Shown here: in pieces, positions 4,451 through 48,993 of the stretch | Layout of the letters: each line of letters starts with the position of its first letter | How positions within the stretch are numbered: position 1 is the stretch's first letter | Source: a bacterium | GTDB taxonomy: Bacteria; Sysuimicrobiota; Sysuimicrobiia; Sysuimicrobiales; Segetimicrobiaceae | DNA: 64,000 nucleotides | NCBI GenBank assembly: GCA_035307765.1 | Contig: DATGHU010000006.1 | Location: 1-64,000, forward strand | Direction of reading: 5' to 3' | Translations under genes and position numbers: made by a program | The notes under the pieces: model-generated | What the model was told of the DNA's origin: nothing | What the model saw: only the letters and a program-made list of their open reading frames with translations | Database searches by the model: none

Positions 4451-4621
4451 ACCGAGCTGTGGCGCGGGGCCTTTCGCCGGACGTACTACTGGAGCGTCGC
4501 GCAACTGGAGCAGGACCCGCAGGCGTACCTGCGCTTCTACAACCGGGACCGATCGCACCAAGGCTATCGGCTCCACGGTCGCACGCCGGCCGCGGTCTTT
4601 CTGGCCCCGAAGGCCAGCTGA
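4451..4621 (+). pseudogene. C-terminal fragment of an IS481-type transposase
   Basis: This frame encodes about 56 residues of the end of an integrase-core transposase: ELWRGAFRRTYYWSVAQLEQ, then AYLRFYNRDRSHQGYRLHGRTP and a stop. The YNRDRSHQGY block is the typical tail of the DDE integrase fold in IS481 and related families. The catalytic DDE residues and N-terminal HTH are absent, so it cannot be functional. A probable right terminal repeat follows at 4639-4663. It shows that an IS once sat between the recombinase and the ABC operon. Confidence 0.75.
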
Positions 4622-4638
4622 GCGCGAATGAGGACGAT

Positions 4639-4663
4639 GGTTGGAGGACAAAAGTGTCAACAC
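4639..4663. repeat. probable right end of the IS481-type remnant
   Basis: Directly behind the transposase stop lies a GGTTGGAGGACAAAAG block ending in TGTCAACAC. In IS481-like elements the terminal repeat reads outward as TGTTGACACTTT..., which fits this strand. The terminal 12 bases recur at 113-124. No matching left end was found near the fragment. Confidence 0.5.
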
Positions 4664-4726
4664 CTCGCCCATACTGGATAAACTAGCAGACGCGCCGGGA
4701 GACCCTGGGTGTCTCCAGATCCTTAA

Positions 4727-4903
4727 CTAAATACAGCTAAGCTGGCCCAGGTTTTCTTCCTGCGCGAGCCAATTGGTAAAATCGAGCGCTTCGTGGCTCC
4801 AAGCGTTGCGTAAGTCTACCTTCTGCAGCTTCGCAAGAAGCTTCCTGGTATACGCCACGATGTAAGTCTCTTCGAGAGTGTATGATGAGGTTCCCTCAGA
4901 CAT
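4727..4903 (-). pseudogene. N-terminal fragment of a DUF4268-like protein
   Basis: A 58-codon frame from an ATG at 4903 encodes AKLQKVDLRNAWSHEALDF followed by TNWLAQEENLGQLS and then a stop. This block closely resembles the start of DUF4268-type proteins (KLEKVDLR.. W..EA.DFT.WLAEEENL), which are nuclease-associated and usually several hundred residues long. Here it ends after 58 residues and no continuation is seen downstream, so I read it as a truncated gene. It sits in the IS-scarred interval between the recombinase and the ABC operon. Confidence 0.5.
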
Positions 4904-5136
4904 TAGTGCTAACGGTTTGCTAACGGGACCGCCACGAAGGGCGAAGAATCGATAAGAAGAGCCGCGAAACAGATCGGCGAAATTGCTTCATAACCGCGGA
5001 TTTCATGAACGGGCGAGGCAGGACGGTAACCTCCGGGCCGATCGATTAGTTTGTGGGCCGAATCCCCTTGGGACCGACTAGACAGTTACATAGAATCATG
5101 GGCCAAATCCTAGGACCGAGCGAAGCCGCACTGGAT

Positions 5137-5928
5137 TCATCCCGTGATGTCATGGGACAGAATCTTCGCAAGAAAAGCTTTGGCACGCTCAGTCTCCGGG
5201 TTTGCAAAGAAGGTCGTCGCCTTAGCGAACTCCAAAATTTCGCCTCGATCCATGAACATTATTCGGTGCGCGACGCCGCGGGCAAACCCCATTTCGTGTG
5301 TAACAATTACCATCGTCATGCCTTCTTTGGTCAAGGCGGCAATTACCTGGAGGACCTCGTTAATCATCTCGGGGTCTAACGCTGATGTTGGTTCATCGAA
5401 GAGCATGATCTTAGGTTGCATAGCTAGGGCACGTGCAATCGCCACGCGCTGCTGCTGTCCTCCAGACAGATAGGCGGGGTGGACGTTCGCTTTATCTGCT
5501 ACCCCTACTCGTTCCAATAGCGACATCGCTAGATCGCGCGCTTCTCGCTTGGATAGTCCCTTGACCAAAATAGGCGCTAGTGTCACATTCTCCACGGCGG
5601 TCTTGTGAGGGTACAAGTTGAAGGTCTGGAACACCACCCCTATTTCCGATTGCAGCTCCCTGAGATTGCGCTTCCACTCATCAATGGGCCGCCCAAAAAC
5701 AGAAATGGTGCCCGATTGAACCGGCTCTAGGTGATTAATGCACCGTACCAGCGTACTCTTTCCGGATCCCGAAGGGCCACAAATAACTATGACTTCGCCC
5801 GGCGCGACCGCAAAAGATACATCGCGCAGTACGTGAAGATTGCCAAACCATTTGTTTACTTTTCGGAACTCGATTGTAGGCGGCGACGCGCCTGCCGGTG
5901 CCAATCTGGCCGAAGGTTTAGACGCCAA
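5137..5928 (-). CDS. polar amino-acid-type ABC transporter ATPase
   Basis: A 263-residue ATP-binding subunit of the GlnQ/HisP type that energises import through the two permeases upstream. Walker A GPSGSGKST is at about 51-59, the Q-loop Gln at about 101, the signature LSGGQQQR at about 154-161, Walker B IMLFDEP at about 174-180 and the switch His in VTHEMGFA at about 211. The start is a TTG with a modest AAGGTCGGA ribosome-binding site. It is the last gene of the minus-strand operon 9836-5137 and the only importer ATPase in the window. Substrate assignment to amino acids rests on the permease and binding-protein families. Confidence 0.93.
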   Translation of the reverse strand: MASKPSARLAPAGASPPTIEFRKVNKWFGNLHVLRDVSFAVAPGEVIVICGPSGSGKSTLVRCINHLEPVQSGTISVFGRPIDEWKRNLRELQSEIGVVFQTFNLYPHKTAVENVTLAPILVKGLSKREARDLAMSLLERVGVADKANVHPAYLSGGQQQRVAIARALAMQPKIMLFDEPTSALDPEMINEVLQVIAALTKEGMTMVIVTHEMGFARGVAHRIMFMDRGEILEFAKATTFFANPETERAKAFLAKILSHDITG

Positions 5929-29389: not shown

Positions 29390-30106
29390 GTGCATCCCGA
29401 GTTGTGCGGTGATTCGAAGCCGGAAGGTGAACACCAAGCGCGATATCGGCGACTTTTCGCCCGCCGACTGCTTCGTTGGTTCAGGGCTCACGGCCGGCGT
29501 TATCCGTGGCGCGAAACGCGAGAACCATACCGGATCTTTGTGGCGGAGTTCATGCTTCAGCGCACGGGGGCCCAGCAGGTTCTGCCGGTCTACATGCAGT
29601 TCGTCAAGAGGTTCCCTACACTACATGACGCCGCAGAGGCCGACGGAAAGACACTTCGAGGCATTCTTTGGCCTTTGGGAAGGGTCGAAAGGTACAAGAT
29701 ACTCCGGAGGGCCTTGCTATATCTGGCCGGAGAGCTCAAGGGGAAACTTCCATCCTCACTCAAGAAGCTACTCAAGATTCCGGGGGTTGGTCCCTACACA
29801 GGTCGCGCCGTTTTGGTGTTTGCACACCACCGGCGACTTGGCCTCTTTGACCCAAACATCTATCGCGTCATCGGGAGAGTTTTTGGGTTCGTATCTACAA
29901 AACAACGGCCGCACACCGATTCTTCGATGTGGAGGACGGTGGACGACCTGATGCCGAAGGGACGCAGTCGGGAAATGAATCTCGCCTTGCTCGACCTCGC
30001 CTCGACGATCTGTCGGACGCGGAGGCCGATTCATGAGAAGTGCCCCATGCAGGACATTTGTGCTTTCTATGGGAGGGCACGGAGTGAAGCCACACACGTT
30101 CATTGA
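29390..30106 (+). CDS. MIG-type T/G mismatch DNA glycosylase (HhH-GPD)
   Basis: A 238-residue MutY/EndoIII-fold DNA glycosylase. The N-terminal block PYRIFVAEFMLQRTGAQQV matches MutY. The helix-hairpin-helix reads IPGVGPYTGRAV: Tyr136 stands where EndoIII has catalytic Lys120 and MutY has Ser, as in MIG.Mth, which removes T from T/G mispairs. The catalytic Asp is Asp154 (LFDPNIYRV). The cluster motif is C208-x6-H215-x2-C218-x5-C224, with His replacing the second Cys. Start is GTG. The 3' end overlaps the methyltransferase start by 23 bases. It likely repairs T/G formed by deamination of the methylated C. Confidence 0.8.
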   Translation: MHPELCGDSKPEGEHQARYRRLFARRLLRWFRAHGRRYPWRETREPYRIFVAEFMLQRTGAQQVLPVYMQFVKRFPTLHDAAEADGKTLRGILWPLGRVERYKILRRALLYLAGELKGKLPSSLKKLLKIPGVGPYTGRAVLVFAHHRRLGLFDPNIYRVIGRVFGFVSTKQRPHTDSSMWRTVDDLMPKGRSREMNLALLDLASTICRTRRPIHEKCPMQDICAFYGRARSEATHVH

Positions 30107-31112
30107 CCTGTTCTGCGGGGCGGGGGGTATGGCTCTTGGTTTTGTTCAGGCGGGGTTCAAATCTGTCTATGCGGTGGACTTTGATAAGCTGGCGGCGGAG
30201 ACGTACAGGAGAAACTTCAAGCACGAAGTCTGGGACGGGCCTATTGAGAGTCTAGATCGCATTCCTGTGAAGGCAGAGATCATCATCGGCGGTCCTCCGT
30301 GCCAAGGGTTCTCCCCGTTAGGGAAAATGATCCCGCTGGCGGAACACCGCAGCATGAATAAGCTCTGGCGTCACTACATGCGGATCGTCGAGCAGGTCAA
30401 CCCTACCGTGTTCATCGTGGAGAATGTGCCGGAGTTCCTGCGATCGTTGGAGTTCAAGTCCCTTGAGCGGAAGGCGACGGAACTGGGATACGAAATCGCG
30501 GCCGCGGTGCTAAACGCGGTTGAATACGGTGTCCCCCAGCAGCGAAAGAGGACATTCGTAGTGGCGGTGAAGGGCGGCACTCCGCGCCTTCCTCCCCCCA
30601 CGACCGGGAGAATGACGGTCCGTGATGCCATTGGCGATCTGCCTCTGCAACCGACGGGCGTCGATTGGCACATTGGTCGGAATCCTACTCCGAAGTCGGT
30701 CAAGCGATACAGGTGTGTTCCGCCCGGTGGGAATCGGTTCGATCTCATAAAGAAGAGGCCCGATCTGGCTCCCCGTTGCTGGCTCAACAAGCCCACCGGG
30801 AGTACGGATGTCTTCGGACGCCTGGAATGGGACAAACAGGCTCTGACGATTCGCACGGAGTTCTTTAAGCCGGAGAAGGGTAGGTATCTCCACCCTCAGG
30901 CAGACCGGCCGATTACCCATCTAGAAGCGGCGAGGCTTCAGACGTTCCCGGACGACTTCGAATTCTACGGGTCCAAGATTCAGGTGGCGCGTCAGATCGG
31001 CAATGCGGTTCCCCCCAAGTTGGCACGTGCGGTTGCGGCTGAAGTAAGGGCGATACTCGAAGAGATCAAGCAGCGGAGGATGGGATCGGAAAAACAGCTG
31101 GCACGAATCTAG
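30084..31112 (+). CDS. C5-cytosine DNA methyltransferase
   Basis: A 342-residue 5-methylcytosine methyltransferase. Motif I is FIDLFCGAGGMALGF, motif IV GGPPCQGFSPLG with catalytic Cys73, motif VI VENV, motif VIII QQRKRTF and motif X RQIGNAVPPKLA. The short target-recognition region between VIII and IX suits a single 4-6 bp site, which cannot be read out. I chose the GTG at 30084 because GGGAGGG sits six bases upstream; an ATG at 30033 would overlap the glycosylase further. It is translationally linked to the glycosylase and precedes an HNH nuclease, so it is the modification half of an R-M unit. Confidence 0.95.
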   Translation: MKPHTFIDLFCGAGGMALGFVQAGFKSVYAVDFDKLAAETYRRNFKHEVWDGPIESLDRIPVKAEIIIGGPPCQGFSPLGKMIPLAEHRSMNKLWRHYMRIVEQVNPTVFIVENVPEFLRSLEFKSLERKATELGYEIAAAVLNAVEYGVPQQRKRTFVVAVKGGTPRLPPPTTGRMTVRDAIGDLPLQPTGVDWHIGRNPTPKSVKRYRCVPPGGNRFDLIKKRPDLAPRCWLNKPTGSTDVFGRLEWDKQALTIRTEFFKPEKGRYLHPQADRPITHLEAARLQTFPDDFEFYGSKIQVARQIGNAVPPKLARAVAAEVRAILEEIKQRRMGSEKQLARI

Positions 31113-31155
31113 GAGGTCTCGCCCGTTGGCAGAGGCGCGGAAAACCCCAAAATGG

Positions 31156-31189
31156 GGGCCTGGTAACGAAACCAGGCCCTCTGTCTTTT
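31156..31189 (+). terminator. terminator-like hairpin between methyltransferase and nuclease
   Basis: GGGCCTGGT (31156-31164) pairs perfectly with ACCAGGCCC (31171-31179) around a 6-base loop, followed by TCTGTCTTTT. It should terminate or attenuate transcription before the nuclease, letting methylation build up first. Confidence 0.75.
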
Positions 31190-31214: not shown

Positions 31215-32156
31215 TTGAGTCAGCCTGATCCAGAGACCGCGAACCTCGTCAAGCGTATAACAGAACTTCTCCGTGAACTGGAAAAGCCCCTCGCAAGGGA
31301 CCCGTCGGAAATCCGTCGGGAGGTTTTGCTCCTCGCAGAGGCCGTGCATAATACGAGGGATTTGGGACGAGTTCGTCTCAAGGCCGTCACCTCCGCGAGG
31401 GGTGCGACCCAACGAATACTCGCGTATATGAAACTCTTCGAGAGCGAGGTCATTGAAGGCAAGGAACTTCAGGTTGTTTCAGGTATTCAAGAGTTCGCCC
31501 GACGGGTTCGGGAACTGAGGGTGCAGGATGGCTACAAAATCTCAACCGGAAGCATTGCGGCAGGTAATGTGCGTGAGGATCTGCGGCCGGATCAATATGT
31601 GTTGGAGAGCACCGATCCCGACACAGAGGCGGCCAGAAAGTGGCAGGTCGCCAACACGATTCGACGGCAGGGAGGGTCGGGAAAGAGCAGGATTCTGGCC
31701 TTCCTTCTTGCGAATGTTCGGCGCCCTGTGACAGGAGAACAGCTGGCGTACGTGGCAGGCCGGGTTAGGGAGGTAGGCCGAAGAACTCGTGAGCTGCGGA
31801 CCGAAGACGGCTATCGGGTTGCTACTCGGTTTACGGGCCGCCCGGATCTTTCGAGTGAGTTTTATGTTCTCGAATCCGAAGACCAACTACCAGACCATGA
31901 TCGACATATCTCCGACACCGTGTATGACGATGTCTTGAAAAGGGACATGAACAGGTGCAGGAATTGTGGATGGTCCGTGGAGCAGAGACGATCGGAGGAA
32001 CGCAGGCAATTCCTGGAAGTGCATCATATCGAGCATCATAAGGCTGGCGGATCGAACAACCACGAGAACCTGATAACGCTGTGCAATGTCGACCATGATG
32101 AAGTACACCGGTTGGGTATTTCAGGAAACGAGTTTTTCGGCTGGCTGCACAAATAG
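31215..32156 (+). CDS. HNH endonuclease with duplicated N-terminal module
   Basis: A 313-residue probable restriction nuclease. The C-terminal HNH domain shows RCRNCGW, FLEVHHIEHHKAGGSNNHENL and ITLCNVDHDEVHR: the paired Cys zinc knuckle, the catalytic His and the Asn and His of the HNH motif. Before it lie two related modules at about 68-131 and 160-220, each with an ILA(Y/F) helix, a VxxVREL.. or VGRRTREL.. helix, the DGY(K/R) turn and a (Q/F)YVLES end. They look like tandem winged helices for target reading. The start is TTG behind GGAG. It lies 103 bases after the methyltransferase, beyond a terminator-like hairpin. Confidence 0.85.
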   Translation: MSQPDPETANLVKRITELLRELEKPLARDPSEIRREVLLLAEAVHNTRDLGRVRLKAVTSARGATQRILAYMKLFESEVIEGKELQVVSGIQEFARRVRELRVQDGYKISTGSIAAGNVREDLRPDQYVLESTDPDTEAARKWQVANTIRRQGGSGKSRILAFLLANVRRPVTGEQLAYVAGRVREVGRRTRELRTEDGYRVATRFTGRPDLSSEFYVLESEDQLPDHDRHISDTVYDDVLKRDMNRCRNCGWSVEQRRSEERRQFLEVHHIEHHKAGGSNNHENLITLCNVDHDEVHRLGISGNEFFGWLHK

Positions 32157-46317: not shown

Positions 46318-48993
46318 ATGCCCGGGCTGCGGACCGGAACGGTCACCTTTCTCTTCACCGATATTGAGGGATCCACGCGCCTGCTCCAAGAACTAGGCGC
46401 TCGGTATGTGGAAGTCCTCGCCGACCATCACCGACTACTCCGCGCTGCGTTCAAGGACTGCGGTGGTCAAGAACTCCGAACTCAGGGAGATGCATTCTTC
46501 GTCGCCTTCCCTCGGGCACGAGACGCTATTGCAGCTGCCATAGCGGCTCAGTGCGCCATCATGGACCATCGGTGGACCGATGGGGCGCTCGTCCGTGTCC
46601 GGATGGGCCTGCACACGGGCGAGCCCCTCATCACGGCGACGGGGTACGAAGGGATGGATGTCCACCGGGCGGCGCGCATTTGCGCGGCCGGACATGGGGG
46701 GCAGATTCTTCTCTCAGGCACGACGGCAATGCTTGTTGCCGGCAGCGTGCCCCCGGGGGTAGCGTTGCGCGACCTGGGCATGCATCGATTGAAGGATCTT
46801 CGTCAGCCGGAGTGGATCTTTCAGGTGATCGACCCGCACCTTCCAACCGAGTTCCGACTGCCGCAGTCCCTTACCACTCTCGCAAACAATCTGCCCCGAC
46901 CGCTGACGAGCTTCGTTGGGCGGGATTCTGAAGTCGCGGAAACCAAGCAGTTCCTATCCATGACCCGCCTGCTGACGTTGACCGGGGTCGGTGGCTGCGG
47001 CAAAACCCGTCTCGCCCTTCAAGCGGCCTTAGGCTTGTTGGAGAACTATGCAGACGGGGTATGGCTCGTGGAGCTAGCTGGTCTTTCCGACCCCGCGTTC
47101 GTCCCCAGATCCTTAGCCTCCGCCGTGGGCATCAGAGAAGAGGCCGGACAGCCGTTGCTGTCAACTCTTATGAGTGCTCTCCGCGAAAAACAGATGCTAG
47201 TCGTGCTCGACAACTGCGAGCACCTTATCACCGCCTGCGCGCAATTGGCCCAGGCGCTGCTCCACATGTGCCCAAGCATTCGGATCCTCGCCACCAGCCG
47301 CGAACCGCTGGGAATCGGGGGAGAAACCATCTTTCCAGTGACCCCCCTTCCCCTGCCCGATCCACTACGGGCCCGAACTGTGGATGATCTCATGGAGTGT
47401 GAAGCCATCCGCCTGTTTGTTGAACGAGCCGCAGCCATGCGGCTGACGTTCAAGTTAACTGCTGAAAACGCCCCCGCCGTCATCGCAATTTGCCGGCACC
47501 TGGATGGGATACCCCTTGCCATTGAACTGGCGGCGGCCCGGATCCAAGCGTTGTCCATCGCAGAGTTGGTTGCGCGGTTGGACGACCGTTTCCGGCTCCT
47601 GACCCAAGGCAGCCGGACGGCCCTTGCGCGGCAGCAGACTCTTCAGGCGACGATGGATTGGAGCTATCAACTCCTCTCGGAGCGGGAGGGTACCATGCTG
47701 CGCCGGCTCTCAGTTTTTGCCGCTCCCTGGACACTAGAGGCGGCGGAGGGGATCTGCGCGGATGATCAAGACGCAGGGATGGATGTCCTTTACCTGCTGA
47801 CCCAGCTTGTGTCCAAGTCTCTCGTGATCATGGATCATCAGGAAAGGGAAGTTAGGTACCACATGCTGGAGACGGTTCGGCAGTATGCTCGAGAACGGCT
47901 AATGCGATCAGCAGAAGCGGTTCGTGTCCGGAACCGGCACCTCATGTGGTACCTGGCGCTAGCGGAGCGATCGGAACCCGAGCTAGTCGCGGCTAGTCAG
48001 ACCCTACGGCTTACCCGCCTTGAGCTCGAGCACGATGACCTGCGGGCGGCACTCTCATGGTCGCTTGAGAACAATCAGGCGGAGTCAGGATTGCGATTGG
48101 CTGCGGCGGTCTGGCGCTTCTGGTGGATCCGCGGCTACTTTGGGGAGGGCAGGACCTGGCTTGAGGCCCTGTTGATGAATAGCGAGGGCAAAGGAACGAG
48201 AATTGTGCGTGCGAAAGCGCTGCAGGCGGTTGGCATTATTGCCGTTCTAGGCCAGGGAGATTACGCGGCCGGACGCGACTTCCTCAGCAAGAGTCTCGCG
48301 ATCTGGCGAGACGCGGGAGACAGGCCGAACATTGCGGCCCTGCTCGACAATCTTGGTACCCTATTCTCCGTCCAGGATGATCACGCCGCAGCTCGCGCCT
48401 TGTACGAAGAGAGCTTGGCAATTCGGCGGCAGCTCCAGGACAAATGGGGCCTCGCCCTTTCCCTGAACAACTTGGGCTTTGTGTTGTACCGCGAGAATGA
48501 CTACTCTGCCGCGTACGCACTCTTCGAGGAGAGTTTGGCTCTCTGGCGAGAGCAGGGTGACGGGCAGAATATTGCCAAGACCCTCAGCAACCTTGGACTC
48601 GTTTCTCTGAGCCGCGGTTGTTTCGCGGGGGCATATCGGTTCCTGAAGGAAAGCCTCGAAGTGCGATTGGCCGCAGGGGACAAATGGGGCATCGCACATT
48701 CGCTCGAGGGATTCGCGGGCCTGGCAGAAGCCCGGGGGGCAGGGGCGCGGGCGGCACGGCTCTTTGGAGCTGCAGAGGCCCTGCGGGAATCTATCGGCGC
48801 CCCCCTTCGACCCACTGATCGCCCCGATTACGACCGCAAAGTCGCTGCCGCGCGAGCGCGGCTAACCCTGGACGCTTTCGCTGCAGCGTGGTCGGCGGGA
48901 AGGGCGATGACCCTGGATCGGGTTGTCAGTGAAGCAATGGACACCGACGGATCGCCGGAAGGGAGATGTTCTAACGCCAACGCATCGATCTGA
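46318..48993 (+). CDS. class III cyclase-NB-ARC ATPase-TPR signalling protein
   Basis: An 891-residue multidomain regulator. Residues 8-170 are a class III nucleotide cyclase: TVTFLFTDIEGST holds the first metal Asp15, QGDAFFVAF the second, Asp58. The usual catalytic Asn of VNxAAR is His116 here (DVHRAAR), while Arg120 is kept, so activity is uncertain. Residues 220-470 are an NB-ARC/AfsR-like ATPase with Walker A GVGGCGKT (223-230) and Walker B VVLDNCEHL. The C-terminal 300 residues carry TPR-like repeats (ALYEESLAIRRQLQDKWGLA, ALFEESLALWREQGDGQNIA). Such proteins are abundant in Chloroflexota and actinobacteria. Start ATG at 46318. Confidence 0.88.
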   Translation: MPGLRTGTVTFLFTDIEGSTRLLQELGARYVEVLADHHRLLRAAFKDCGGQELRTQGDAFFVAFPRARDAIAAAIAAQCAIMDHRWTDGALVRVRMGLHTGEPLITATGYEGMDVHRAARICAAGHGGQILLSGTTAMLVAGSVPPGVALRDLGMHRLKDLRQPEWIFQVIDPHLPTEFRLPQSLTTLANNLPRPLTSFVGRDSEVAETKQFLSMTRLLTLTGVGGCGKTRLALQAALGLLENYADGVWLVELAGLSDPAFVPRSLASAVGIREEAGQPLLSTLMSALREKQMLVVLDNCEHLITACAQLAQALLHMCPSIRILATSREPLGIGGETIFPVTPLPLPDPLRARTVDDLMECEAIRLFVERAAAMRLTFKLTAENAPAVIAICRHLDGIPLAIELAAARIQALSIAELVARLDDRFRLLTQGSRTALARQQTLQATMDWSYQLLSEREGTMLRRLSVFAAPWTLEAAEGICADDQDAGMDVLYLLTQLVSKSLVIMDHQEREVRYHMLETVRQYARERLMRSAEAVRVRNRHLMWYLALAERSEPELVAASQTLRLTRLELEHDDLRAALSWSLENNQAESGLRLAAAVWRFWWIRGYFGEGRTWLEALLMNSEGKGTRIVRAKALQAVGIIAVLGQGDYAAGRDFLSKSLAIWRDAGDRPNIAALLDNLGTLFSVQDDHAAARALYEESLAIRRQLQDKWGLALSLNNLGFVLYRENDYSAAYALFEESLALWREQGDGQNIAKTLSNLGLVSLSRGCFAGAYRFLKESLEVRLAAGDKWGIAHSLEGFAGLAEARGAGARAARLFGAAEALRESIGAPLRPTDRPDYDRKVAAARARLTLDAFAAAWSAGRAMTLDRVVSEAMDTDGSPEGRCSNANASI

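Follow-up and report, generated by a model that had tools for sequence, protein, structure and literature searches.

In the window, meaning the whole 64,000-nucleotide stretch of DNA that was analysed, a MIG-like DNA glycosylase carries histidine at the second of the four ligand positions of its Fe-S loop, and sequence comparison indicates that this natural Cys3His version of the loop is a recurring one in methyltransferase-linked MIG-like enzymes, and more than a private error. Histidine at ligand 2 was known before from engineered MutY; here it occurs naturally, at the same place, in archaea and bacteria. The role of the cluster in DNA glycosylases (structure, redox sensing, or allosteric coupling with the active site) remains a matter of debate, and is called enigmatic in PMC12000561; a recurring natural single-ligand swap in archaeal and bacterial genes that are under purifying selection would provide matched Cys4 and Cys3His enzymes within one family.

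The window protein is probably a natural thymine-DNA glycosylase of MIG-like type with a Cys3His-ligated [4Fe-4S] cluster, travelling with a type II-like restriction-modification cassette and repairing T:G mismatches, a reading drawn from sequence and a structural model. The cassette comprises the glycosylase, an m5C methyltransferase and an HNH nuclease; deamination of the cassette's 5-methylcytosines would generate T:G mismatches, from which the glycosylase would most likely excise T, the job of Vsr in sister cassettes, with the [4Fe-4S] cluster still bound and held by Cys208, His215, Cys218 and Cys224. For this protein, we infer cluster occupancy, ligation by histidine and T:G activity from the following features and their comparison with relatives.

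29390..30106 (+), HhH-GPD DNA glycosylase, MIG-like, 238 aa, GTG start, assigned from Pfam HHH, the 1kea match and the AF2 model
29546..29548 (+), E53, which we take to be the position of the catalytic Glu of MutY; Glu in 14/14 His-type rows of the alignment
29795..29797 (+), Y136, presumably the position of the EndoIII catalytic Lys; Tyr in MIG and most MutY of the set
29849..29866 (+), D154-x-N156-x2-R159, catalytic Asp with the Asn/Arg network, from the alignment, the network as given in PMC12000561
30011..30061 (+), Fe-S loop, C208-x6-H215-x2-C218-x5-C224, from the sequence
30011-30013 (+), C208 codon TGT
30032-30034 (+), His215 codon CAT, ligand 2; Cys in 176 and His in 14 of 193 distinct rows
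30041-30043 (+), C218 codon TGC
30059-30061 (+), C224 codon TGT
30033 (+), alternative methyltransferase start, an in-frame ATG formed by the last two bases of the His codon plus the one after
30084..31112 (+), DNA cytosine-5 methyltransferase, 342 aa, GTG start at 30084 with GGGAGG 8-13 bases upstream, PF00145 2.1e-64
31154..31181 (+), terminator-like hairpin of 11 pairs between the methyltransferase and nuclease genes
31215..32156 (+), HNH endonuclease, presumed restriction enzyme, 313 aa, TTG start (the first start codon of the frame), PF01844 1.7e-9

The glycosylase frame (29390-30106, +) opens with GTG, and its product of 238 aa has the C-terminal sequence ...LLDLASTICRTRRPIHEKCPMQDICAFYGRARSEATHVH. 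The sequence-only reading had claimed the motif C208-x6-H215-x2-C218-x5-C224, which the codons at 30011-30061 (+) bear out, and had taken the histidine for a substitution, not a misalignment; this also holds, as MIG (1kea) aligns gap-free throughout the motif and places its Cys opposite H215. A single miscalled base would not account for His215, since both Cys codons differ from CAT at two or more positions and the exchange of Cys for His takes two substitutions (TGY to CAY). The aligned domain (residues 7-238) contains the three ligand Cys and no other; the one further Cys of the protein, C6, lies in the low-confidence tail of the model.

Family assignment was guided by structure as well as by profiles. 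Pfam HHH scores above its cut-off and HhH-GPD below (23.1 bits vs 26.2), while the NCBIfam cut-offs are not reached for mutY (170.4 bits vs 286.5) or for nth (36 bits vs 211.7), Tyr136 standing in place of the catalytic Lys. Among solved structures, the closest in sequence is 1kea, named 'Possible G-T mismatches repair enzyme' (5e-36). In the AF2 model (mean pLDDT 93.2; 95-97 in the blocks with the Fe-S loop), the top structural Z is again that of 1kea (27.8, rmsd 1.5, 214 residues), followed by MutY at 26.8 and less (human MUTYH 26.8) and EndoIII at 22.3 and less, the gap of ∼1 between 1kea and human MUTYH being close to a tie; Foldseek places MutY chains first by E-value and 1kea 14th, with 1kea having the highest TM-score among the 50 matches listed.

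The closest known comparison is MIG (Mig.Mth, plasmid pFV1, 1kea), a T:G-mismatch glycosylase with which the window protein shares a one-domain HhH fold (238 aa, Z 27.8 to 1kea, in near-tie with MUTYH), an Fe-S loop and the Glu/Tyr/Asp positions (E53, Y136, D154), together with a gene located near those of an m5C methyltransferase and a restriction nuclease; here the methyltransferase gene (30084-31112) overlaps that of the glycosylase. Since the chain stops 14 residues past the last loop Cys, the C-terminal MutY domain is absent. R58 stands where the MutY LQQT motif has Gln and MIG-like proteins have Arg/Lys, a contrast taken from these alignments and not from a curated definition. Tyr136 was considered as a MIG-specific marker and dropped, most MutY in the set having Tyr too. 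MIG differs in having Cys at ligand 2, and hence four Cys in the loop where the window protein has Cys3His, in its identity of about 30%, and in its NgoPII-family nuclease, as opposed to HNH in the window.

Histidine at the identical ligand, in the same fold, is found in E. coli MutY His199 (1kqj, titled 'a mutant of MutY catalytic domain'), which reads C192-x6-H199-x2-C202-x5-C208 and superposes on the window model with Z 25.6; that protein, however, is engineered, an adenine glycosylase and 28% identical, whereas the window His is natural. From title, date and sequence, 1kqj is presumably the Messick 2002 structure; this work and Golinelli 1999 are known at second hand, through reference-list entries and in-text citations. 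The folds of mitoNEET and IscR are unrelated to that of HhH glycosylases. According to a passage of PMC11138216, both hold a cluster by three Cys and one His, as proposed here, although theirs are [2Fe-2S] clusters; the same source ties His ligands in other iron-sulfur proteins to a raised potential, to proton-coupled electron transfer or to lability. A title cited in PMC3584444, PMC12000561 and PMC4348247 names a histidinyl-coordinated [4Fe-4S] cluster in MutY obtained via mutagenesis, and the paper bearing it would appear to be the one describing 1kqj.

Relatives were gathered from one genome-collection scan (80/295 loci kept), whole-genome searches and plasmids, the whole-genome searches covering the window's relatives and phylum, the phyla of L032, L038, L062, L034 and L053, and the order of L032 (1,996 genomes in all, some searched twice). 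Matches were cut by E-value, MIG-like first, with profiles drawn entirely (A2) or in part (A3) from His-type rows, and reading was confined to fetched loci, so that MutY is under-sampled and the share of His is not a natural frequency. At E up to 1e-20 there were 197 rows, of which 193 were distinct after merging partial copies at 97% identity; their ligand residues are CCCC in 176, CHCC in 14 and missing in three (L103 and L150, which lack the motif, and L096, which ends before it). None of the 193 distinct rows has any other single-ligand change in an otherwise intact motif, which, set against 14 with His at ligand 2, argues that the histidine is more than chance. L103 and L150 are MutY-like proteins with 0/4 cluster ligands, of the clusterless type.

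Typed by the residue at the position that is Gln in MutY, His occurs in 14/68 Arg/Lys (MIG-like) rows, and in 0/110 Gln (MutY-type) rows, 0/14 EndoIII-like rows and the one gapped row (0/1). This contrast between MutY and MIG-like proteins fits the count in PMC11078426, where four Cys are conserved in every one of the 160 MutY mined at a single site. The 14 His rows are those of the window, L037 (identical to L038), L062, L032, L054, L151-L154, L156, L166, L170, L176 and L189, with named sources including Methanoculleus sediminis, a Methanocalculus, Chloroflexota/Dehalococcoidia MAGs and a Bacillota MAG. Without exception, these rows retain Cys as ligands 1, 3 and 4, together with the Glu/Tyr/Asp positions and the Arg-Asn-Asp network, whose Arg and Asn, as stated in PMC12000561 for MutY and MIG, connect a cluster Cys with the catalytic Asp. 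An extra Cys stands beside ligand 4 in three His rows (L037, L153, L170), and Cys is found at the position of residue 145 in 7/14 His rows vs 4/48 Cys-type rows; the window protein has neither.

The interpretation given in the sequence-only reading is partly borne out. The sequence-only reading had proposed looking for a conserved His in related cassettes, and had named Cys in close homologues as the observation that would overturn it. The histidine does recur in distant relatives (14/193 distinct rows, all MIG-like), and the overturning observation did not arise, with the caveat that the nearest rows by identity carry Cys (L005, 43%; L024, 41.7%), and no relative of the window protein above 43% identity, other than itself, was found among the 61 relative and 43 phylum genomes searched. 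Loci fetched from the window's relatives and phylum, which represent part of the matches there, are Cys4. Because the closest rows carry Cys, the His in the window lineage could be recent and tolerated, not selected. Matches in phages and plasmids are all below 60% identity, the best for the window protein being 41.7%, and three scans of viral contigs gave no close relative of it, two of them yielding one Cys-type locus each (L108, L117). These two viral contigs carry MIG-like Cys-type glycosylases together with m5C methyltransferases. The literature searched, with its thin coverage of subscription journals, yielded no report of a His ligand occurring naturally in an HhH glycosylase.

The main tree comprised 67 rows (14 His, 41 Cys MIG-like and 12 hand-picked MutY) with the ligand-2 residue masked; left out were 7/48 short Arg/Lys Cys rows without the catalytic Glu, and long-frame Arg/Lys rows such as L006 and L163. 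Six state changes are needed on this tree, three of them forced by starred branches, and the same numbers were obtained from an earlier tree of 70 rows with ligand 2 unmasked and an EndoIII outgroup. The window protein falls outside the starred MutY clade; the genome's separate MutY-like gene (L002), 40% identical and with four Cys, falls inside it. A single clade for all 14 His rows is rejected (p-AU 0.00098), as is grouping the main His-containing clade (nine His, three Cys) with L037 and L062 (p 0.0067) or the window with L037 and L062 (p 0.0034), the latter two values being softer because both groups were named after seeing the tree. Grouping the window with the main His-containing clade (p 0.163) or with L166 (p 0.26) is not rejected; a value of p 0.0002 for the window with nine His rows was set aside, as those nine rows are not themselves a clade. 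At least two His lineages are thus well supported by the sequences, and the window's His may share the larger of them. The main His-containing clade encloses a Cys trio (L155, L157 and L161), making reversions to Cys possible. His is encoded by CAT in 12 rows and CAC in two, each two changes from the corresponding Cys codon. Close pairs of His-type genes, which cover His-type genes other than that of the window, have Ka/Ks of 0.10-0.18 in 6/6, indicating purifying selection and hence that the paired genes are working.

The 14 His rows correspond to 15 His-type loci, L037 and L038 carrying the same protein. An m5C methyltransferase, detected with a profile built from eight cassettes (seven of them among the counted loci), lies within the first-fetched stretches, mostly with flanks of 4-5 kb, at 7/15 His-type, 22/26 Cys-type MIG-like and 3/68 other loci of the genome-collection scan, the three others having short frames too (160-261 aa); the haloarchaeal Cys-type loci L111-L113 were left ungrouped. 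With longer stretches, which were read for the His-type alone, the count rises to 13/15; of the remaining two, L038 shows no methyltransferase before its contig ends and L062 sits on a contig of 7,668 bases. In defence cassettes, MIG-type glycosylases are often found beside m5C methyltransferases.

Several defence settings are represented, so the His form is not peculiar to one system. At L239, the glycosylase is preceded by genes matching MzaB, MzaC, MzaD and MzaE, and a DrmMII-type methyltransferase is present as well; L238 has the gene order of L239, as judged by length and opening sequence. In these Mza defence operons of Methanomicrobiales (L239, 4178-13672, and L238), the MIG-like glycosylase stands as an extra terminal gene. 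L038 has one DrmE-like and one NERD-helicase-like neighbour. At L037, L038 and L062, from MAGs labelled Chloroflexota and Bacillota, the His-type glycosylase lies directly 5' of DrmE-like and NERD-helicase-like genes; the close likeness of their proteins makes recent transfer, or else a mislabelled bin, likely.

A pointer to function comes from the cassettes of related methyltransferases. The best five plasmid cassettes among the matches listed (methyltransferases 45-50% identical) were opened, and a Vsr-type gene is present in four of the five: the Pandoraea cassette has one gene annotated vsr that also holds an HNH match, the Sphingomonas cassette has vsr and HNH, and those of Rhodococcus and Mycobacterium paragordonae each have a very short patch repair gene and an NgoMIV-family nuclease; the Halorussus cassette has HNH and no annotated vsr, in an incomplete gene table. 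The Pandoraea gene (L246, Pandoraea oxalativorans plasmid, 4566-5924) is an apparent Vsr-HNH fusion beside the related methyltransferase, its HNH part matching the window nuclease. The NgoMIV-family nucleases beside two of the related methyltransferases point to GCCGGC as a candidate site for the window methyltransferase. The Vsr family gave 0 matches in the window's whole assembly (96% complete), with a control that was positive in 5/14 known genomes. The glycosylase occupies the slot where sister cassettes hold Vsr, and this, together with the MIG-like fold, is the ground on which T:G repair is proposed. Vsr, the classical T:G-repair nuclease, would have the same presumed job in sister cassettes of the window's methyltransferase family; its fold is unrelated to that of HhH glycosylases, and it nicks DNA without base excision.

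Ligation of the cluster by Cys3His, raised as one option in the sequence-only reading, is favoured by the retention of the other three Cys and of the Arg-Asn-Asp network in 14/14 His rows, and by the crystallised MutY His variant; its alternative, an absent cluster, is disfavoured. A cluster lost or weakly held, in a protein that works without it or is decaying, has some precedent: clusterless MutY exists (MutYX, 8uuc; also PMC11078426) and likewise departs from the Cys4 cluster within the superfamily, and three of the 193 rows are without the motif. MutYX, however, is named clusterless and is marked by loss of ligands, whereas the window protein keeps three Cys and their spacing; the two degraded-motif rows retain no ligand at all (the third ending before the motif), all 14 His rows keep three Cys, and the pairs tested are under purifying selection, leaving this explanation improbable. 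Cys3His is a common ligand set for zinc. PMC9266487 describes zinc held by Cys3His in NEIL2 where relatives have Cys4 zinc, but a zinc ion in place of the iron-sulfur cluster is given little credence here, since the spacing and the cluster-to-active-site residues are kept and the MutY with a His ligand, according to its paper's title, kept its iron-sulfur cluster.

Tolerated drift, in which the cluster is normal and the exchange to His at ligand 2 is nearly neutral and without functional meaning, is unlikely. Of the four ligands, the second may tolerate replacement best, as MutY with His there was crystallised, and the Cys rows within the main His-containing clade do show state changes; set against this, two base changes are required with no Tyr or Arg intermediate seen in intact motifs, the replacement is always His and always at ligand 2, and it is kept across the Methanomicrobiales rows with Ka/Ks of 0.10-0.15 in 5/5 pairs. 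Hardly credible is a constraint from the overlapping gene, whereby CATGAG supplies the methyltransferase ATG at 30033, in the methyltransferase frame with GCGGAGG just upstream, and His is a by-product: the histidine also occurs where the methyltransferase is kilobases off or on the opposite strand (L220, L032, L243), and GTG 30084 has its own GGGAGG, on which grounds the start-codon origin was rejected. Both starts (30033 and 30084) are preceded by a GGAGG-like site.

Beyond the favoured reading of a Cys3His-ligated, cassette-borne thymine-DNA glycosylase, a bolder extension can be put forward tentatively, as possible but short of probable: the [4Fe-4S] site may have been rebuilt repeatedly as Cys3His, always at ligand 2, in methyltransferase-linked thymine-DNA glycosylases of restriction and phage-defence systems. 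The protonatable ligand would then shift the potential and couple it to pH, or would make the cluster a deliberately labile switch gating T:G repair. Such repeated rebuilding, if true, would have produced in nature what the His-199 MutY represents by engineering.

A scan for hairpins found six sites vs a shuffle mean of 3.5, the stem at 31154-31181 being the longest of the six, and its position suggests separate transcription of the HNH nuclease from the glycosylase and methyltransferase. The cassette is flanked by metabolic genes (dehydratase, short-chain dehydrogenase, enolase-superfamily enzyme, solute-binding protein), and signs of insertion around it are confined to short imperfect repeats, with no tRNA in the window. 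In 1-kb windows its GC is 55-58%, compared with 62-66% in the five kb before (60% straddling the start) and 62-68% just after; values of 58-61% return from 33.5 kb onward, making the dip weak evidence of a foreign origin. Further along the window, positions 46318-48993 encode a large protein in which guanylate cyclase, AAA and TPR domains are combined.
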